Part shown: positions 2,417 to 42,242 of the stretch, in pieces
Position numbering within the stretch: position 1 is the stretch's first letter
Layout: each line of letters opens with the position of its first letter
Assembly (NCBI GenBank): GCA_013792135.1
Contig: VMSP01000024.1
Location: forward strand, 1-57,734
Direction of reading: 5' to 3'
Length of the DNA: 57,734 nucleotides
Source of the DNA: Desulfocapsa sp.
GTDB taxonomy: Bacteria; Desulfobacterota; Desulfobulbia; Desulfobulbales; Desulfocapsaceae
Position numbers and translations under genes: made by a program
Notes under the pieces: generated by a model
What the model was told of the DNA's origin: nothing
The model's database searches: none
Seen by the model: only the letters and a program-made list of their open reading frames with translations

Positions 2417-3505
2417 ATGACTCAGAAAAATGAAAGTGAAAACGTACTGGCGCTTGTTCCCTTGCTCCATGATTCCGGTCTTCTTACCAGCCGGGAGGCT
2501 GCTGCTCCTCTGGCATCCCTTGTGGTGCAGAGGTTGGCAGGTGACGGCTCAAACCGGCAATTCTGGCGGGTCGGACGCAAGGATGGTGAGAAGATTTGTC
2601 TGGCTGTGGCCCCTGCCGGCAGGACAGATCTGGATATGCTGGAAGCCAGATCGGCCCGGTTGATCGGCGTCCATCTCCATGATCGTGGTGTCCGGGTTCC
2701 AGCCCAATATGGCTGGGATGAGGAACAGGGACTGCTGTTGTTTGAGGATCTCGGGGATGTGAAGCTCCATGACCTGGTGGAGCAGAGTCGCAATCAGTCT
2801 GGGGAACTGGATCTGCATGCCCTCCGCTCCTGGTATATTCAGGCCGTCCAGCAGCTGGCCTGGATGCAGATTCACGGTGCCGTTGGGTTTAACTGCGACT
2901 GGTGCTGGGATACCAAGGAATATGATCGTCCCTTGATGCTGGGCCGGGAATCCGGTTATTTCCTGCGGGCATTCTGGCAGGAGCTACTGGGACAGGAGCT
3001 GGTTCCGGGAATTGAGGAAGAGTTCGAATGGGTCGCAACTGCAGCCTCTCAGGCTCCAGTCACTTTCTTTCTGCACCGGGATTTTCAGTCGAGGAACATC
3101 ATGGCGCAGAACGGTCAGCTGTGCTTTATCGATTTTCAGGGGGGAAGGATGGGGCCTCTGGGCTATGATCTGGCCTCACTGCTTATTGACCCCTACACCG
3201 CCCTGCCAGCCTCGTTGCAGGAAGAGCTCCTCGTGGTGTATCTTGATGCCGTGATGGCTCTGCATCCTGTAGACGCCCGGCTGTTCCGACAGGAATATTG
3301 TTTTCTTGCCCTGCAGCGGAATCTGCAGATTATCGGCGCCTTCTCATTTCTGAGCAGGGTGCGGGGCAAGGCTTTTTTCGCCAGTTTTATCGTGCCATCC
3401 CTGGTCTCCTTGGCTGAGCGTTTACGAGATCAGGAACTGCGTGACCTGCGGGTACTCCCGTGCATGGTGACCCAGGCCCTGAAGCTTTTTCAGCAGGGGG
3501 TGTAA
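2417..3505 (+). CDS. aminoglycoside-phosphotransferase-fold sugar kinase (AmgK-like)
   Basis: About 362 residues from the ATG chosen here; a longer frame with GTG at 2360 exists, but it would run into the divergent gene's promoter space. The kinase-like fold is shown by the N-lobe GDGSNRQFWRV, the brace FEDLGDVKLHDL, the catalytic loop HRDFQSRNIM and the metal-binding segment FIDFQGGRMGPLGYDLASLL. This pattern is that of the APH family branch containing AmgK, an anomeric kinase of N-acetylmuramate/N-acetylglucosamine in cell-wall recycling. The partner nucleotidyltransferase MurU, often adjacent to amgK, is not next to it, so the substrate is inferred only from the family. Confidence 0.65.
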   Translation: MTQKNESENVLALVPLLHDSGLLTSREAAAPLASLVVQRLAGDGSNRQFWRVGRKDGEKICLAVAPAGRTDLDMLEARSARLIGVHLHDRGVRVPAQYGWDEEQGLLLFEDLGDVKLHDLVEQSRNQSGELDLHALRSWYIQAVQQLAWMQIHGAVGFNCDWCWDTKEYDRPLMLGRESGYFLRAFWQELLGQELVPGIEEEFEWVATAASQAPVTFFLHRDFQSRNIMAQNGQLCFIDFQGGRMGPLGYDLASLLIDPYTALPASLQEELLVVYLDAVMALHPVDARLFRQEYCFLALQRNLQIIGAFSFLSRVRGKAFFASFIVPSLVSLAERLRDQELRDLRVLPCMVTQALKLFQQGV

Positions 3506-5434: not shown

Positions 5435-6012
5435 CACATTTCGAAGTGTGCTTCCAACAGTAACACATAAACGCAAGCCTCTGAGGATCTTGCAAAAGTA
5501 ATAATTTCTTGAAATTCTCAATTTGCTCGAAGATTTCTTTGTAAATTCCAAAATATTTGACTCTATCTTAGAGTACAGGGTTAAAATTTAATTTTAACTT
5601 ATGTGGTGCTGGTGTTAGATGCCTAACTGTTCCTCTTAATTTTGGCCCATATTCTATGGGCTGCCAATCTGTTCGCTCGGAGTGAAATCCTGTCAGGAAT
5701 AAGGTTCACCCTGCAGTTGTACTTAAATGGTTAACCTTGCCATTGGCATTTTTTTACTTCTTACCCCAAATTCCTGTTAAAAATATTTAACCTGTGATTG
5801 AATAAATCAACGTTCATTTTTATGATGATGAGGGGAATTAGGAAAAACCTGAAAATCAGTTTTTGATTAACTGGTTAAGGTTGGCACTGAATATGTTGGA
5901 AAAAACACGGACGGCTCAAGAATCAAGAATAATACTAGAGAGAATCTGCCTAGCAGCAATATTGGCTTATTTTTCCTAATACACTGCTCGCAAGCCATTG
6001 GAGAAAACAACT
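5435..6012 (+). other. gene-free region upstream of diguanylate cyclase with repeated motif
   Basis: About 580 bp, AT-rich, without a convincing gene. Two further copies of the 18-bp motif seen at 4903 occur here: GGTTAACCTTGCCATTGG at 5729-5746 and GGTTAAGGTTGGCACTGA at 5873-5890. The region 5722-5870 is similar to that upstream of the PilZ gene. Confidence 0.45.
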
Positions 6013-19890: not shown

Positions 19891-20093
19891 TGTTTTTTTG
19901 GGTGACACATTGACTCTGCGTTTGTTATCCTTTGCGCTCATCAAAAGGTTACCTCCTTAGTTGGCTTGGTTTAGCTGTTAAAGTTTTGATAGTATAACTT
20001 TTTTTATATTGTTTTGTTGTTTGTTTGCAATGTTTAGGTATTACTTCTCACCCTGTCAAAAATTTAAAAATATCACTCGAACTGTTTTACAAT

Positions 20094-22160
20094 ATGAAGC
20101 ATAACCCTGAAAAATCGATTCGTTGCAGGATACTGATACCTTTATCCCTGACCATTACAGCTCTTTTCTGCACTTTTATCTACAGCACGTATCAGATCCG
20201 TGCCGAGCAGAACCTGATCGATATGCGCCATCACTACGAGGTTACCCAGGCATACGTCGATGTGTCACAGGCCCAGCGTGAGACGTTGCTGCTCAATCTT
20301 ATGATCGAAATATCGCGCAACACTCAGTTGCGCCAGGCGATGATGGCCAACGACCGTGATACCCTTTACCAGCACTCCCTGCCGCTGTTTAATCAGCTCT
20401 TCCAGGCCCACGGAATCTCGCACTTTTACTACCATACGCCGGCTGCTACGACCTTGCTCAGGGTCTACAGCCCCGATGAATTCGGCGATCAAGTGGTCCG
20501 CAAGACCTTTTTACAGGCGGCCCACAGCCAGAAATTTGCCTTTGGGTTGGAACTCGGCAGATTCGGTATGCCGACATATCGGGGCGTTTTTCCGTGGCGA
20601 GTGGCAGATAAGTTGATCGGGTATATTGAGCTGGGGATCGAAGTCGATTACGTCCTCAAGCAACTGCAATCGATTGTCAAACAAGATTTCATGATCACCC
20701 TTGACAAACAGCAGCTTGATCGTGAGCAGTGGGAACTTGGCCGGAAGCACTCTGGCCGCTTGAATAACTGGGATTTATTCAGCGACCAGGTGATTGCCTA
20801 TCAAACCCTGCCTGATTCAAGCAACATGAGTAAAATCAAACTGTTGGCCGTGAAGAGCCTTGCTGCGGAGGAAGCATACAACGACATGGCTATCGATCAG
20901 CAGGTCTATCGCATCAAGGGCTTTCCATTGTTCGATTTTTCAGGCCAGTTGATTGGCGGTTTCTATGTGTTGCATAATGTCACGCAGCAGATAACCTCCT
21001 TTAAGGCGTTCCTCGTACCTATTATTCTGGCGAGTACCAGTCTGTGTCTGGTGCTGTTTTTCTTCGCTTATATCGTGCTGGGCAGAATGGACCAGAAGTT
21101 GGCGGTTACTCGGCAACGCCTCAATGATGAAGTCGCTAACGTCACGCTGGCCAACCGGCAACTGGAAGAGGAGATCGGTAACCGGCGCCAGGTCGAATCG
21201 AAACTGCAGCTTCTCAACCAGACACTGGAAGAGCGGGTTGCGCAACGCACGGTGGCGCTGGTAGAGTTGAATCGGGAGTTGCAGGAAACACAGGCAACTA
21301 TTCTACATCAGGACAAGATGGCCTGTATCGGTCAGCTTTGCGCCGGCATCGCCCACGATATCAACAACCCGATCGGTTTTGTCAGTCATAATTTGGGCAC
21401 CTTTGAGCGTTATCTGGAACGTTTGAACCAATTTTTTACCCTGCAGATAGAACTGATCAAACGCCGAGGCGATAAGGAGATGGTTGCCGCCTGCATGAAA
21501 GGGCGGCAGGATTTCCGCATCGATGAGATGCTGCGTGAGATGTCGGTCATGCTAGCGGAATGCCGCGACGGCACCACTCGCATCAGCCAGACCGTACAGG
21601 GTCTGCGCAACTTTTCGTGCAAGGAAATCCCGCGGCGCGAATTTATTGATCTGCATCAATGTATCGACAGTACCCTTGCGCTTATTCGTCACGAGCTGCA
21701 CACCAAGATCGAAGTTGTGCGCAACTACGGGGACATTCCCCGATGTTACTGCTGCGCCGGGCAGATGAACCAGGTGTTTCTAAATCTGTTTATTAACGCC
21801 ACCCAGGCCATTACCGGGCCGGGGAAAATTCAAATTCAGAGCTGGGCCGAAGACAAGAAGATTTGGATTACCATCAGCGATAACGGCTGCGGCATCTCCC
21901 CCGACAAGCTCGAACACATCTTCGAACCCTTTTTCACCACCAAAGAGATCGGTGTCGGTACCGGTCTCGGCCTGAGTATTGTCTACGACATTGTCACCCG
22001 CCATAAGGGTATCATCGATGTTGCCAGCAAACTAGGCTCGGGAACCACCTTCACCCTGTGCATGCCTCTTGATATGAGAGCAAAACTACGTGACCCGAAC
22101 GCAGCGGCCCTGTTCTCAGCAAATCTGATCCGTACCGAAAATGGTGACCACCGTGACTGA
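20094..22160 (+). CDS. sensor histidine kinase with periplasmic Cache-like domain
   Basis: 688 residues from the ATG used here. A membrane segment at ~14-34 and a second at ~305-330 enclose a periplasmic region of about 270 residues with the look of a double Cache ligand-binding domain (FYYHTPAATTLLRVYSPDEFGD, GVFPWRV, IGYIELGIEVDYVL). A coiled coil precedes the phosphoacceptor His (~421) in GIAHDINNPIGF; the ATPase N box is NQVFLNLFINATQAI, with DNGCGI and GTGLGLSI. It would sense a small extracellular ligand and phosphorylate the NtrC-type regulator whose gene overlaps its 3' end by 20 bp. GC content appears higher than in flanking genes. Confidence 0.88.
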   Translation: MKHNPEKSIRCRILIPLSLTITALFCTFIYSTYQIRAEQNLIDMRHHYEVTQAYVDVSQAQRETLLLNLMIEISRNTQLRQAMMANDRDTLYQHSLPLFNQLFQAHGISHFYYHTPAATTLLRVYSPDEFGDQVVRKTFLQAAHSQKFAFGLELGRFGMPTYRGVFPWRVADKLIGYIELGIEVDYVLKQLQSIVKQDFMITLDKQQLDREQWELGRKHSGRLNNWDLFSDQVIAYQTLPDSSNMSKIKLLAVKSLAAEEAYNDMAIDQQVYRIKGFPLFDFSGQLIGGFYVLHNVTQQITSFKAFLVPIILASTSLCLVLFFFAYIVLGRMDQKLAVTRQRLNDEVANVTLANRQLEEEIGNRRQVESKLQLLNQTLEERVAQRTVALVELNRELQETQATILHQDKMACIGQLCAGIAHDINNPIGFVSHNLGTFERYLERLNQFFTLQIELIKRRGDKEMVAACMKGRQDFRIDEMLREMSVMLAECRDGTTRISQTVQGLRNFSCKEIPRREFIDLHQCIDSTLALIRHELHTKIEVVRNYGDIPRCYCCAGQMNQVFLNLFINATQAITGPGKIQIQSWAEDKKIWITISDNGCGISPDKLEHIFEPFFTTKEIGVGTGLGLSIVYDIVTRHKGIIDVASKLGSGTTFTLCMPLDMRAKLRDPNAAALFSANLIRTENGDHRD

Positions 22161-23511
22161 GAAAAAAACACACCTTCTTTATGTGGATGACGAAGCGGCC
22201 TACCGCAATATTTTTTGTCGGGAAATGGGGGAAGATCAGCGCGTTACGATTGAAACCGCTGCGGATGGCCCGACTGCCCTGCGCATGCTCGAAACCAGGC
22301 GCGCCGACATCGTCCTGACCGATCTGAGCATGCCCGGCATGGATGGCATCACCCTGCTGCAGGAAATTCACCGGCGCTATCCTGAGATTTTCGTCTTGAT
22401 TCTTACCGGTGTCAATTCGGCCCATGAAGCGGTCCGGGCGATGAAGGCTGGCGCCTACGACTATATCCTCAAGCCGTTCGATGTCACCACGCTGCAGATG
22501 CAGCTGGAAAAAATCCTCCAGCATCGCCATCTGCTTGACAATAATAAAGAAGGGCAAAACGAGGCCCATTTTGAACAGCTGGTTGGCCAGGACCCCGCCA
22601 TGTATGAACTGTTCGAGGGGATCAGACGCATCGGCCCGACCAATATCACGGTCCTGATTCGCGGTGAAAGCGGCACTGGTAAGGAACTGATTGCCGCCGC
22701 CATTCACGCTCGCAGTGCCCGTCGGGACCAGATATTTGTCCCGGTCAACTGCGCCGCCCTTACCGAGGGCCTCATCAACAGCGCCCTGTTCGGCCATGAA
22801 AAAGGTGCCTTCACCGATGCTGGAGCTCGAAAAATAGGTTTTTTCGAGCTTGCCCAAGGCGGCACCATCTTTCTCGACGAAATCGGAGAGATCCCCTTGC
22901 AGACCCAGGTCGCCCTGCTGCGGGTGCTCGAGTTGGGCACCTTTCACCGGGTCGGCGGCACCGAAACCATCCAGGTCGATACCCGCATTATCTGTGCCAC
23001 CAACAAAGATTTAGAGGCCGCTATGCGCGAAAAAATATTCCGCGAAGATCTTTTCTATCGGCTCAATGTCGTCACCCTCACCGCGCCGCCTCTACGTGAT
23101 CGGCAATCCGACATCCCGCTGCTCGTCAACTTTTTTCTGCGCAAGTTTAACCGCGAGAGCGGCAAGCAGATCAGCTTCGTCGACCAGGCTACCATGAACC
23201 GGCTCTGTGCCTACCGCTGGCCGGGTAACGTGCGTGAGCTGTCCAATGCCATCGAGCGCGCCGTGGCCTTCTGTCCCGGCAGCGAATTGCGTCTCAAACA
23301 TTTCCCCGCCGAACTGCAGCACGCTGTCGTTGCTGAGAAAGATTTCTCCCTCCAACTGAGCTCCAGCTCCCTGCCCGAAATCGAAGCCGAAGTGATCGGC
23401 AAAGTCCTTGAAGAAAAACACTGGAACCTGTCGCAGGCTGCTGAAGCACTCGGCATTGCCCGGGGCACCCTCTACAGCAAAATAAAACATTACGGCATTG
23501 TAAAAAACTGA
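22141..23511 (+). CDS. NtrC-family sigma-54 response regulator
   Basis: 456 residues: receiver domain with phosphoacceptor Asp61 (LTDLSMPGMDG) and KPF at 111-113; AAA+ domain with GESGTGKE Walker A, GTIFLDEIGEI Walker B and GNVRELSNAIERA; C-terminal Fis-type helix-turn-helix (NLSQAAEALGIARGTLYSKI). The sigma-54-contacting loop reads GAFTDA at residues 222-227 instead of the usual GAFTGA. The gene overlaps the kinase gene. Directly downstream lie three palindromes and a sigma-54 promoter, so its target is very probably the multiheme cytochrome gene. Confidence 0.92.
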   Translation: MVTTVTEKKTHLLYVDDEAAYRNIFCREMGEDQRVTIETAADGPTALRMLETRRADIVLTDLSMPGMDGITLLQEIHRRYPEIFVLILTGVNSAHEAVRAMKAGAYDYILKPFDVTTLQMQLEKILQHRHLLDNNKEGQNEAHFEQLVGQDPAMYELFEGIRRIGPTNITVLIRGESGTGKELIAAAIHARSARRDQIFVPVNCAALTEGLINSALFGHEKGAFTDAGARKIGFFELAQGGTIFLDEIGEIPLQTQVALLRVLELGTFHRVGGTETIQVDTRIICATNKDLEAAMREKIFREDLFYRLNVVTLTAPPLRDRQSDIPLLVNFFLRKFNRESGKQISFVDQATMNRLCAYRWPGNVRELSNAIERAVAFCPGSELRLKHFPAELQHAVVAEKDFSLQLSSSSLPEIEAEVIGKVLEEKHWNLSQAAEALGIARGTLYSKIKHYGIVKN

Positions 23512-23558: not shown

Positions 23559-23576
23559 CTGTTGAAAATTGAACAG
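23559..23576. promoter_or_regulatory. upstream activator site 1 (palindrome)
   Basis: CTGTTGAAAATTGAACAG. Half-sites CTGTT and AACAG pair exactly. It is one of three near-identical 18-bp copies between the regulator gene and the sigma-54 promoter, and is a likely binding site for the NtrC-type regulator encoded just upstream. Confidence 0.65.
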
Positions 23577-23652
23577 CCGCCGGACGTGGCCCAATTCCGC
23601 CCCATCCCACCCCATCCCTCTCTTCTCACGATCAGCCGCTGTTGTTTGCGAG

Positions 23653-23670
23653 CTGTCGAAATTTGAACAA
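23653..23670. promoter_or_regulatory. upstream activator site 2 (palindrome)
   Basis: CTGTCGAAATTTGAACAA, matching site 1 at 15 of 18 positions. It is centred 94 bp downstream of site 1. Confidence 0.6.
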
Positions 23671-23731
23671 CTTTCTTTGTTTCAGAAATAATACCGAAAA
23701 CCCATAGGTTAAGCTTGTGCCGAAACTCTTG

Positions 23732-23749
23732 GTGTTGATAATTGAACAG
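23732..23749. promoter_or_regulatory. upstream activator site 3 (palindrome)
   Basis: GTGTTGATAATTGAACAG, matching site 1 at 16 of 18 positions. It lies 79 bp after site 2 and about 85 bp before the -24 element, a normal distance for enhancer sites used by sigma-54 activators. Confidence 0.65.
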
Positions 23750-23833
23750 TTACGGCTCCGTCTGGAACCGGCGTGATTCCAGACTGAGCTCAATAACATG
23801 CTGATATTAAACGATGAATAGTTTTTTGTAGAT

Positions 23834-23848
23834 TGGCACTAAAATTGC
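23834..23848 (+). promoter_or_regulatory. sigma-54 (-24/-12) promoter of the multiheme cytochrome
   Basis: TGGCAC, five bases, TTGC: an exact match to the -24/-12 consensus with the required spacing. Transcription should begin near 23859. It points to the cytochrome gene, whose ATG is 235 bp downstream. The T tract after -12 is also typical. Confidence 0.8.
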
Positions 23849-23858
23849 TTTTAATGAA

Positions 23859-24082
23859 GAAGACGTCGAAATCATTCATTCTACAATGGATTAAATGTTC
23901 CTTTTTTATTTCACGATAACAACGCAAAAGCTGGGGATGGACCATAAGTCCATCGACGAGTGAGTAACGACAAAAAAACAGGGTGGTAGTAACGCCGGGG
24001 TGCCGTGAGCCGATGAAGGTGGCGTCTTGAAAGCGAACTGGCATAAAATCTGTAATAAACGTACCACGCAGGAGGCGTTATA
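23859..24082 (+). promoter_or_regulatory. long structured 5' leader of the cytochrome mRNA (unclassified)
   Basis: About 220 nt between the predicted transcription start and the ATG, without a gene. A perfect 7-bp hairpin GATGGAC-CATAA-GTCCATC lies at 23936-23954, followed by a G-rich stretch in which ACGCC (near 23991) can pair with GGCGT (near 24022). The ribosome site GGAGG (near 24071) lies at the end. Length and structure suggest RNA-level control. The region is not a confident match to any riboswitch class that I know. Confidence 0.4.
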
Positions 24083-26161
24083 ATGAAAAAAACAATATTG
24101 GCAACAGCTGCCTTTGCTTTATTGGCCAGCAATGCATTTGCAGAAGATAGTGCCCGGACGATCGGCATGTCATTCAGCCCGACCCCGGCACTTCTCGGCA
24201 AATCGGTTCAATTTACCTGCAAAGCAACAGGTGAATGGACGAGAAGATTGAGGACGGCGCAGATCTCGGTGTATGACGCCTCTCACTCCACACTTGTGTC
24301 CCAGAAGTCAATGGCAATCAGTGGTTTGAGTGCAACCTATAATTACACCGTCCCCACCAACAAAACAACCGGCAACTGGGACTACAAGTGCTATCTGCAG
24401 GACAGCCGAAACCATAAAGTGACTAAGACAAGCAATTTTCTTGTTGTGGCTAACAGCACGCCACCACCACCACCTCCCCCCCCGCCACCGCCACCGCCGG
24501 TCGAGCCTCCACCAGTAGTTCCACCTCCGGTAGGAAGTATTCCCCAGCATCTGGCCATCTCCAGCTACGACGGACCCTCAACCTGTATTGCCTGCCATCA
24601 GGTTGAGGCTCAGGACATGCTGAACAGTCTGCATATGCAATGGTCCGGACCAACAACCAAGTTAAGCAATGCCAGCGGTCAAGTTCTCGGCAAGGCAGTT
24701 GGCGGTATCAACACCTTCTGCACCTACGCCCCGTCGTCAAAGGGTGCCTGCTATTCCTGTCATGTACGTGCCGACGGCAATGCCCCTCATCCACCGGATG
24801 TCAATGACGTGGATTGTCTCATGTGCCATAGTGATATCTATCAACGCACGACTGTTGCCGATGCGACTAATCCTGTAACCGTCACCGATATCTATGGTAA
24901 AGTAAAGACCTACATTTTCGGTGCCCAGGACGCGGAAGGCAACTACACCACCGTTCCCGACTATGCACTCATGCCGGCTGGAACGACTATGGAATCTCTG
25001 GCGCAGAACGTCCACAAACCAACCAAGACTTCCTGTCTGCGCTGTCATGCCAAGGCTGGCGGTGGTGACTGGACGAAACGCGGCGACATGGGCCTGAGCA
25101 CCAAAAATCCCACGGTCACCGAAGACGTACATATGTCCTCCGATACTGGTGGTAAGAATATGACCTGTACTTCCTGCCATGTATCACAGAAACACAAAAT
25201 CGGCGGTCGCGGCATTGATCTTCGCGCAAGCGAGGCAGCTGAGCCGAAATGTACCACCTGCCATACTACCGCGCCGCACTCAAGCGCTGATTACAACCGT
25301 CACTCCCAGGGTCAGGTAGCTTGTCAGACATGCCATATCCGTACATTCGGCAAGGGTGGCGCAACTGAAATGTCCCGTGACTGGTTGAAGCCCGTCTGGA
25401 ACCCGGCCTTCTGTTCCGGACAGGGTGGTTATGTCGGCGAAGAAGTTAAGGTTGCCAACGTAAAACCTGAGTATCGCTGGTTTGACGGTACCTCTTACGT
25501 TTACAATGTTGGCGAAACAATCGCGAAAAATGCGGATGGCACCTACACCATGGCCAAAGCCAATGGCAAGGCTTTTGATGGCAAGTCCAAGATCGTACCG
25601 ATCAAGGATCACTGGTCAATTATGGCTCTGCACGAAAGCGGTAAGATCATTCCGCCGGTAATCATGGACATGTTCATGACCGGAGATTTTGACAAGTCAG
25701 TAGTGGCCGGTATGGAAGAGCAGGGTATGACCGGCAGCTACACCATCGTTAAAACCAATGCCGAGATGTTAATCACCCATGGTGTTGATCCAAAGTCAAA
25801 GGCTCCTACCTGTACTGAGTGCCATGACAGCACCGGCAAAACAGTTGACGGCACCAAGATGCTTCCCTATGGAGAACTTGGGTATCATACCTGGCCCGCA
25901 AAGGTCGCCAACTGTACCCTTTGTCATGAACAGAAATCCATGTCATGGCAGGCTATGCACAACAAGCATGCGGCAAGTAATGGAGGAGATGTTAAACTGT
26001 CGTGCGCAAGCTGTCATACAAGTGAACCAAAAGGTCTTGTTAAACCGACGAGCGATTTGTGCAACGACTGCCACAGCTCCAAATCATGGAGTAACGGCCA
26101 AGAACTGCATAAAAAACATATTGAAAAAGGTTATCAATGCGTAAAATGTCATAAGTTCTAA
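24083..26161 (+). CDS. secreted 12-heme c-type cytochrome with Ig-like domain
   Basis: 692 residues. A signal peptide (ending ASNAFA) precedes an Ig-like beta domain at ~25-123 with Cys46 and Cys103 placed for a disulfide. A linker with 13 consecutive prolines and more PPV repeats spans ~127-150. Twelve CxxCH heme sites follow, the first at 168-172 (CIACH) and the last (CVKCH) two residues from the C-terminus. The first heme region (QDMLNSLHMQWSGP) resembles multiheme cytochromes of the octaheme tetrathionate/nitrite reductase type, but no definite enzyme was recognised. It is probably a periplasmic or cell-surface electron-transfer protein. The start has GGAGG. It is monocistronic, between its own sigma-54 promoter and a strong terminator. 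Confidence 0.9.
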   Translation: MKKTILATAAFALLASNAFAEDSARTIGMSFSPTPALLGKSVQFTCKATGEWTRRLRTAQISVYDASHSTLVSQKSMAISGLSATYNYTVPTNKTTGNWDYKCYLQDSRNHKVTKTSNFLVVANSTPPPPPPPPPPPPPVEPPPVVPPPVGSIPQHLAISSYDGPSTCIACHQVEAQDMLNSLHMQWSGPTTKLSNASGQVLGKAVGGINTFCTYAPSSKGACYSCHVRADGNAPHPPDVNDVDCLMCHSDIYQRTTVADATNPVTVTDIYGKVKTYIFGAQDAEGNYTTVPDYALMPAGTTMESLAQNVHKPTKTSCLRCHAKAGGGDWTKRGDMGLSTKNPTVTEDVHMSSDTGGKNMTCTSCHVSQKHKIGGRGIDLRASEAAEPKCTTCHTTAPHSSADYNRHSQGQVACQTCHIRTFGKGGATEMSRDWLKPVWNPAFCSGQGGYVGEEVKVANVKPEYRWFDGTSYVYNVGETIAKNADGTYTMAKANGKAFDGKSKIVPIKDHWSIMALHESGKIIPPVIMDMFMTGDFDKSVVAGMEEQGMTGSYTIVKTNAEMLITHGVDPKSKAPTCTECHDSTGKTVDGTKMLPYGELGYHTWPAKVANCTLCHEQKSMSWQAMHNKHAASNGGDVKLSCASCHTSEPKGLVKPTSDLCNDCHSSKSWSNGQELHKKHIEKGYQCVKCHKF

Positions 26162-40853: not shown

Positions 40854-42242
40854 ATGTATTCCATACTGATTGTTGATGATGAACCGAACTATCTGGTGAT
40901 CCTTTCTGAGCTGCTGCGCGATGAGGGGTATGAGATTTTTACCGCCCCGGGCGGTGCCCAGGGTCTGGTGCTTATTCAGAACGTGGATCTGGATATGGTG
41001 ATTACAGACATGCAGATGCCGGGTATGGACGGCCTTCAGCTTCTTGGGGCCATTAAAAAAATCAACAGTGATCTGCCGGTGGTGATGATCACCGCCTTTG
41101 CTCAAGTGGATAAGGCAGTGGCTGCCATGCAGGCAGGGGCCTTTAATTATCTGGCCAAGCCTTTTTCTAATGATGAACTCATTGTTACCATAAATAAGGC
41201 GGTCCATCATTATTCGCTGGTTCGGGAAAACATCCGCTTGCGCAAGGAAATCCTGACCCGCACTGGTTTTGCCGGTATGGTCGGCAAAAATGCGCGCATG
41301 GTTCAGGTCTATGAGTTGATTGAAAAGGTGGCGCCAACCCCATCATCGGTACTGATTACCGGTGAGAGTGGAACGGGCAAAGAACTTGTAGCCAAGGCCA
41401 TACATGTGAACAGTCCCCGTCAGGATAAGGCCTTCATTACCGTAAACTGTGCAGCCCTTGCTGAAAATTTGCTGGAGAGTGAACTCTTCGGTCATGAAAA
41501 GGGGGCCTTTACCGGGGCCGTGGCAATGCGTAAGGGCCGTTTTGAGCTGGCAGACGGCGGTACTCTGTTTCTTGATGAAATCGGTGAGATTCCACTCTCC
41601 TTGCAGTCTAAACTGCTTCGAGCCCTGCAGGAAAAGAGCTTTGAGCGGGTGGGTGGGAGCAAGACGCTGTCTGTTGATGTGCGGATTATCAGTGCCACCA
41701 ATAAAGATCTGAAGGAAGAGGTGGATCAGGGCCGTTTTCGTGAGGACCTGTATTATCGGCTCAATGTGATCCATGTTCTCTTGCCGCCCCTGCGGGAGCG
41801 GATGGATGATATCCCGATCCTGGTCGCATATTTTATCAAGACTGTTTCTGAACGTCTGGCAAAGCCCGGACTTTCCATCAGTCCCGATGCCCTGCGTCTT
41901 CTGGTAACCCTGCCTTGGGAGGGGAATGTACGGGAGTTGGAAAATACTATTGAACGGGCGGCAATCCTTTGTAATAACAACAAAATTGAAGCAGAAGATG
42001 TGCAGCCGGAATCCACGGCCAGAAGCCCTCAGGCCGCCTGGACGCATGCCATGGATCTTGCTCAGTTGATTCCGGATACGGTGGAACTCAATGAGGTTCT
42101 CTATGCGGTGGAAGAAAAGATGTTAAACCGGGCCCTGGAGGCCTCTGGCTTTGTCCAGGCACGAGCGGCGGAGAGACTGGGGATCACCAAAAGTCTGCTC
42201 CAGTACAAGATGAAAAAATACGGGATCAAGAAAGGGAAGTGA
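40854..42242 (+). CDS. orphan NtrC-family sigma-54 response regulator
   Basis: 462 residues: receiver with Asp52 (ITDMQMPGMDG) and AKPF, AAA+ domain with GESGTGKE, canonical GAFTGA, GTLFLDEIGEIPLSL, GNVRELENTIERA and Fis-type HTH (ARAAERLGITKSLLQYKM). No kinase gene adjoins it; it follows the PHP gene by 45 bp. The target is unknown, perhaps flagellar genes. Confidence 0.92.
   Translation: MYSILIVDDEPNYLVILSELLRDEGYEIFTAPGGAQGLVLIQNVDLDMVITDMQMPGMDGLQLLGAIKKINSDLPVVMITAFAQVDKAVAAMQAGAFNYLAKPFSNDELIVTINKAVHHYSLVRENIRLRKEILTRTGFAGMVGKNARMVQVYELIEKVAPTPSSVLITGESGTGKELVAKAIHVNSPRQDKAFITVNCAALAENLLESELFGHEKGAFTGAVAMRKGRFELADGGTLFLDEIGEIPLSLQSKLLRALQEKSFERVGGSKTLSVDVRIISATNKDLKEEVDQGRFREDLYYRLNVIHVLLPPLRERMDDIPILVAYFIKTVSERLAKPGLSISPDALRLLVTLPWEGNVRELENTIERAAILCNNNKIEAEDVQPESTARSPQAAWTHAMDLAQLIPDTVELNEVLYAVEEKMLNRALEASGFVQARAAERLGITKSLLQYKMKKYGIKKGK

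Follow-up and report, generated by a model that had tools for sequence, protein, structure and literature searches.

Organization of the locus

The window, by which we mean the whole stretch of 57,734 bp that was analysed, carries on its forward strand the genes of a sensor histidine kinase and an NtrC-type response regulator and, across a gap of 571 bp, that of a multiheme c-type cytochrome. All three copies of an 18-bp motif lie within this gap, together with a dyad, an IHF-like site and a sigma-54 promoter:

20025..22160, + strand: sensor histidine kinase (Pfam dCache_3, E 3.7e-12; HATPase_c, E 2.4e-24), whose true start may be an internal ATG
22141..23511, + strand: NtrC-type response regulator, a sigma-54 enhancer-binding protein with REC, AAA+ and Fis-type HTH_8 domains, presumed to bind the sites
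23559..23576, + strand: predicted enhancer site 1, CTGTTGAAAATTGAACAG, centre at about -292 from the inferred start (0 mismatches; 30.0 bits)
23653..23670, + strand: predicted enhancer site 2, CTGTCGAAATTTGAACAA, centre at about -198 (3 mismatches to CTGTTGAAAATTGAACAG, 15/18 equal; 28.9 bits)
23732..23749, + strand: predicted enhancer site 3 (proximal), GTGTTGATAATTGAACAG, centre at about -119 (2 mismatches, 16/18 equal; 26.8 bits)
23760..23784, no strand: dyad, GTCTGGAA-N9-TTCCAGAC, with perfect 8-bp arms, between site 3 and the IHF-like site
23794..23806, - strand: IHF-like site, TATCAGCATGTTA, a full match to WATCARNNNNTTR, centre at about -60
23834..23849, + strand: sigma-54 promoter, TGGCACTAAAATTGCT, TGGCAC-TAAAA-TTGCT, score 11 of 11; transcription start inferred near 23860
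23860..24082, + strand: inferred 5' leader of about 220 nt, matching no Rfam family
24083..26161, + strand: multiheme c-type cytochrome with 12 CXXCH motifs and N-terminal export, the presumed target gene, with a region related to octaheme tetrathionate reductase (OTR)

The regulator has the complete domain set of the NtrC type (Pfam Response_reg, 1.1e-26; Sigma54_activat, 4.3e-67; HTH_8, 5.9e-13), a Walker A motif (GESGTGKE) and the recognition helix IARGTLYSK, and its sigma-54 contact loop reads GAFTDA instead of GAFTGA. In the available part of PMC4641369, GAFTDA is among the loop variants expected to stay active, and is carried by DVU2106. The loop differs even inside the genus, being GAFTDA in 4, GAFTSA in 1 and GAFTGA in 4 of 9 orthologues (own included). 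The protein stays under the curated NCBIfam cut-offs of AtoC (427.8 bits against 714), NtrC (419.9 against 558.6) and ZraR (376.8 against 760), and reaches no cut-off among the matches listed (25 of 115 families). A second NtrC-type regulator, 44% identical to it, is encoded at 40863-42233 of the window.

The cytochrome falls below the cut-off of TIGR04315, the family of octaheme tetrathionate reductase (243 bits against 375), and its sole PDB sequence match at E 0.001 is 1sp3, with residues 285-588 as the best stretch. By these scores it is related to the OTR family without being a member by cut-off.

Three copies of the motif

The first-pass annotation had reported three copies of an 18-bp palindrome, found only between the regulator gene and the sigma-54 promoter. 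Both the copies and their confinement are borne out: allowing up to three mismatches, CTGTTGAAAATTGAACAG has three matches in the window, at 23559, 23653 and 23732, against 0.07 expected (both strands; mean of 100 dinucleotide shuffles, 0/100 of which reach three), and no further match exists on either strand of the 57,734 bp. The term palindrome holds for the perfect 5-bp arms (CTGTT/AACAG) but not for the whole, which is imperfect, site 1 read in reverse having 3 mismatches to the degenerate motif. A scoring matrix made from 47 sites of relatives, with the window left out, ranks sites 1, 2 and 3 first, second and third in the window, followed by the reverse reading of site 1 at 17.5 bits and the best unrelated place at 12.1 bits.

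Sites 1 and 2 start 48 and 142 bp past the regulator stop codon, and site 3 starts 102 bp ahead of the start of the -24 element. The proposal that site spacings approach whole helical turns applies to the first (94 bp, or 8.95 turns at 10.5 bp per turn) and fails for the second (79 bp, 7.52 turns).

The sigma-54 -24/-12 consensus is TGGCAC-N5-TTGC(A/T), with GG and GC as its hallmarks, and the window promoter matches it at every scored position. Between the enhancer sites and this promoter is the IHF-like site, predicted from its match to the consensus WATCARNNNNTTR as quoted in the available text of PMC7962754. Among 10 blocks of the genus the consensus is matched in full in 6 (at -60/-61), with one mismatch in 3 and not at all in 1 (the second block of genome G015). 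Over 19 blocks, full matches occur in 7 against 0.26 in mononucleotide shuffles, and matches with at most one mismatch in 15 against 4.3, figures that overstate independence, as related blocks share descent.

The dyad at 23760-23784, whose core TGGAA-N9-TTCCA is kept in part among genus-mates, is possibly the operator of a second regulator. About 80 nt at the start of the leader (23850-23931) are 74-79% like the leader of hexaheme-type genes in G007 and G004; a hexaheme-type leader before the OTR-like gene of the window is a possible scar of gene exchange. A riboswitch in the leader was considered and rejected, with no Rfam match at gathering score, one match far below it and a folding z-score of -0.9.

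Conservation within the genus

Of the 17 genomes available for the genus, several of which are incomplete, 9 (counting the own genome) encode a regulator at least 90% identical. Behind it, 9/9 of these genomes have three sites (at most one mismatch to the generic motif) and the promoter, a count that is non-independent in that genus-mates share descent. The distance from the start of site 3 to the -24 element is 102 bp in 8/10 blocks of the genus and 103 bp in the other 2, and the sites are better conserved than the DNA between them.

Where the blocks of other genus-mates are intact, sites 1 and 2 are 83-84 bp apart, so that the 94 bp of the window represent about one helical turn more; this fits the suggestion that both lie on one face of the helix. 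Sites 2 and 3 are 77-81 bp apart in the genus, near a half-turn offset. For helical phase between the proximal site and the promoter the evidence is borderline: 14 spacings (102-105, 111-115 and 121-123 bp) give R = 0.65 (simulated p ~0.0015), and adding 94 and the weaker 107, 78, 78 and 120 reduces this to R = 0.41 (p ~0.05), with some loci sharing descent. In G015 the block is duplicated (locus L052, 3755-3968 and 5606-5888), with both of two tandem genes for hexaheme cytochromes preceded by a copy of their own, and site 1 of the first copy is damaged and displaced.

The fixed distance of 102-103 bp also bears on whether the sites mainly autoregulate the kinase-regulator operon, or act both ways. 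Sites 1 and 2 start close behind the regulator stop codon, as given above, and the kinase gene has at its start (20053) a match to the degenerate motif with 3 mismatches, to which G013 and G001 offer only poor equivalents, observations that would be in keeping with such a role. However, the promoter faces away from the operon, the window holds no further match to the 18-mer within three mismatches, and in relatives the stretch of up to 1.5 kb ahead of the regulator gene contains no site, although it is mostly kinase gene and leaves the operon promoter outside. We therefore regard autoregulation as highly improbable, and favour the reading of the sites as enhancers of the downstream promoter.

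Sites follow the regulator, not the cytochrome

It had been anticipated that the motif would be conserved upstream of orthologous cytochromes. A cytochrome of the window type (at least 60% identity) stands behind the promoter in G002 (as second gene) and in G011 (N-terminal part, at a contig end). We could not find a site with at most one mismatch to the core at 8 further long orthologues (L212-L219), a set that leaves out a ninth long match starting at a contig end (G012:C44) and shorter fragments. L215 has no upstream DNA; of the 7 informative loci, 5 offer at least 2.8 kb, and L214 and L218 about 0.5-0.65 kb, which barely spans the distance at which the sites of the window lie. The motif is thus absent before 7/7 stand-alone orthologues with upstream DNA, and the anticipated conservation does not hold. 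The sites therefore belong to the slot of the regulator and not to the cytochrome. The enhancer reading is not refuted by this, since it is the regulator that the sites accompany, ahead of whatever gene comes next.

The genes behind the block vary accordingly in their encoded proteins. OTR-like cytochromes with 10-12 CXXCH motifs are found in the window, G011, G013, G002 and G001, and hexaheme cytochromes in G015 (twice) and G004, while in G007 a hexaheme-type leader is followed shortly by the contig end. A protein with 16 CXXCH motifs stands behind the block in G008 and an MtrC-like one with 10 in G044. In G055 and G043 the products are large proteins without CXXCH, and G043 has a better site pair 3 kb further on, before another gene. 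Locus L129, from a Geobacter sp. MAG, has an OmcA/MtrC-like cytochrome and, judged by eye, a TetR-like gene and a porin-like protein; G444 (L211) has a 10-CXXCH cytochrome plus an MtrB/PioB barrel; L123 and G421 (L210) have cytochromes with 4 to 14 CXXCH motifs; and L119 and G406 have small exported proteins without heme motifs. On these comparisons, the sites follow the regulator, and what stands behind the promoter differs from species to species.

We tentatively propose that kinase, regulator, tandem enhancers, IHF site and sigma-54 promoter may form a fixed 'expression slot' in Desulfobacterota that exchanges extracellular-electron-transfer genes, a real possibility towards which we would not yet lean. 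If so, cells would swap terminal cytochromes with signal and switch unchanged, the cargo comprising OTR-like 10-12-heme, hexaheme, 16-heme and MtrC-like cytochromes, as well as a decaheme cytochrome with an MtrB-like barrel.

Motif and regulator clade

In distant Desulfobacterota, sites occur beside regulators 46-75% identical to that of the window and carrying the helix [AS]RGTLY[SG]K. We took at most one mismatch to the 16-base core as a site. Among 30 listed regulator loci the helix RGTLYSK is present in 14, and in 14/14 of these the 1.5 kb downstream contain one site (G043) or more. The other 16 listed loci, which lack RGTLYSK, have none (0/16; L033, with helix AQETLYSK, offers only 348 bp to search). 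There is some circularity in this comparison, since sites in the own genus, G044, G055, G043, G003 and G009 had been seen before the generic motif was drawn up.

A prospective test came from searching 395 genomes of the phylum at protein level, which gave 13 matches; leaving out two of the first set (G000, G008) and three found by the motif (G406, G421, G444), 8 loci were new. Sites are present at 6/7 prospective loci with [AS]RGTLY[SG]K (L224 and L225 have one each, and the seventh, L223, has 240 bp downstream), and L228, whose helix is DRVTLYNK, has no site. Over this and the first set together, the 16 tested regulators whose helix is clearly different have no site. Some of the new loci share genera with motif-found genomes (G610 with G421, G347 with G444) and are not independent of them.

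In a tree of 36 regulators, the site-bearing ones fall into one group of 21 with support of 100/99, in which 20/21 have sites and L033 is the exception. Loci L036-L050 (15) show 0 motif matches in 126 kb counting both strands, against 4 in 115 kb for the window, which we take to be the three sites plus the reverse reading of site 1, from the matrix ranking. Outside the genus, the number and spacing of sites vary: L224 and L225 have a single site (at most one mismatch), the proximal distance ranges over 78-120 bp when weaker sites are included, and in L119, L222 and G421 the sites lie 0.5-2 kb from the regulator.

G003 and G009 encode a paralogous regulator, 48% identical to that of the window, and double TG[CT]CCGATNTTGAACA sites occur in them at 2 and 4 places. 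Five of the six have sigma-54 promoters 102-115 bp further on, the sixth being at a contig end, and some precede receptor-like genes (by eye). They represent a possible multi-target regulon.

Scans by motif

Disregarding proteins, we searched for pairs of sites with starts 68-98 bp apart. The pair motif is present in 12/257 genomes of the order, with 0 for the reversed control. In the genome_contigs collection (84,980 species), a scan that possibly excludes the own genome, it occurs in 30 stretches, of which 19 are labelled Desulfobacterota (15 genomes) and 11 are others. A sigma-54 promoter (at least 9 of 11) follows 102-122 bp past the last site in 16/19 Desulfobacterota stretches, against a background of 0.047 per 230 bp. 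Among the three without one, L115 is at a contig edge; L118 (G044) has the triplet with a weaker promoter (8 of 11, spacing 107); and L124 (Desulfonema magnum) has tandem sites with neither a recognisable promoter nor a regulator relative in its 8-kb locus. The L124 sites fall into two groups, at 3251-3420 and 5666-5786 when the locus is read in reverse, and they precede two genes that, judged by eye, encode subtilisin-like proteases. The 11 stretches from elsewhere have no promoter within 260 bp (0/11; the locus L136 ends too soon) and were rejected as members of this system, being taken as chance or other palindromes.

A combined pattern of site plus promoter with a gap of 61-91 bp has no match in 257 genomes of the order, with 0 also for the control; even the own genome is missed, because the pattern required an A at position 7, which is absent from site 3. 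With a gap of 92-122 bp it matches in 4/257 (G003, G009, G043 and G055; control 0). A relaxed version run on the phylum matches in 4/395 genomes, the own one, G406, G421 and G444 (control 0); the last three have 2-3 tandem sites and, nearby, a relative of the regulator with 52-71% identity, which in G421 lies some 2 kb upstream.

Other targets in the own genome

The own genome is a 4.2 Mb draft in 186 contigs. With fewer than two mismatches the degenerate consensus matches only at the three window sites; with up to three it has 85 matches against 36 for a reversed-pattern control, and the loose motif alone therefore yields background. The 85 matches correspond to 84 distinct places once repeats with identical flanks are dropped, and of the 81 further ones 2 have within 300 bp a promoter-like sequence of score 9, where chance would give about 4. 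Thus, a second own-genome target was rejected, and the motif, put forward as a means of finding other targets, yields none there. We conclude that, within the limits of the 186-contig draft, one target is recognisable by sequence in this genome.

The loose matches could indicate chance repeats or a repetitive element at the locus. Against this stand the expectation for the window given above, the conservation of the sites over the intervening DNA in the genus and the zero control counts in the motif scans of order and phylum; because of that conservation, such an origin is very unlikely, to the point of being negligible.

The sites might also serve another regulator, either a paralogue elsewhere or a repressor, with the adjacent gene there incidentally. 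At least 28 matches related to the regulator were found in the own genome by protein search, and the similar core of G003 and G009 occurs both beside their paralogue and elsewhere, which leaves room for this idea. Yet in Desulfobacterota the motif goes with this clade of regulators and with its recognition helix, and no second place in the own genome pairs the motif with a good promoter. We therefore consider a different binder highly improbable, and the adjacent regulator the preferred one.

A predicted enhancer-dependent switch

The enhancer role suggested at first pass is reinforced by conserved triplets behind orthologous regulators, a promoter at 102-103 bp, the prospective test and the coincidence of the regulator clade with the motif; because of this computational comparison across relatives, enhancer function is strongly supported. 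What the DNA shows directly is the sites themselves, the matches to the promoter and IHF consensus, the conservation of all these, and the correspondence of the motif with the regulator clade. As expected of upstream activating sequences (UAS), the predicted dyads lie about 80-300 bp upstream of -24 and are conserved with the regulator. The three sites are almost certainly docking sites for the adjacent two-component regulator, which would switch on the multiheme cytochrome gene. More fully, they very probably represent tandem UAS for this NtrC-type protein, acting with its kinase, an IHF loop, the sigma-54 promoter and the cytochrome gene.

In the mechanism that we envisage, the dCache-type sensor kinase would phosphorylate the regulator. 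Using the helix IARGTLYSK, regulator dimers would then occupy the dyads (TGTYGA-N4-TGAACA) centred near -119, -198 and -292. The bound regulators would assemble as an AAA+ oligomer, which an IHF bend at about -60 may bring, by looping, into contact with sigma-54 RNA polymerase poised at 23834. Hydrolysis of ATP would then open the promoter of the multiheme cytochrome at 24083. We infer phosphorylation and, from the known kind of system, binding, looping and activation with its direction. In its own genome this looks like a dedicated one-promoter switch.

Comparison with known systems

Two-component sigma-54 activators of the NtrC/AtoC type with tandem UAS and IHF are a textbook kind. The window has in common with it the REC, AAA+ and Fis-type HTH domains, dyad UAS about 100-300 bp upstream, a -24/-12 promoter and an intervening IHF-like site, but differs in having its own motif TGTYGA-N4-TGAACA, three sites and a GAFTDA loop.

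We found no description of the motif in the literature searched, including the available running text, as distinct from figure logos, of PMC4641369, PMC3333781, PMC2725144 and PMC7962754. The present analysis would thus provide both a DNA motif and a target gene for a clade of sigma-54 activators on which that literature yielded no such description. It would also link this clade, in Desulfobacterota that are for the most part uncultured, with multiheme cytochromes and with porin-cytochrome genes. Any genome can be searched for cytochromes under such control by the rule that combines helix and motif ([AS]RGTLY[SG]K with TGYYSNWNNTTGAACA), and cargo exchange behind a constant promoter may offer a handle on the swapping of electron-transfer genes.

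In the RpoN regulon of Geobacter sulfurreducens, activator genes likewise adjoin sigma-54 promoters and there is a link to extracellular-electron-transfer cytochromes; the window motif was not found in the available portion of that account (PMC2725144). A relative of the module was found by motif alone in a Geobacter sp. MAG (L129). The nearest published case that we found, according to the part of PMC4641369 available, is DVU3142 of Desulfovibrio, which regulates the octaheme cytochrome complex (ohc). There, too, a sigma-54 activator gene adjoins a multiheme cytochrome operon with a sigma-54 promoter and predicted sites, given without a sequence in the part available, although DVU3142 is single-component and divergent from ohc, and the cytochrome complex is a different one (PMC4641369).
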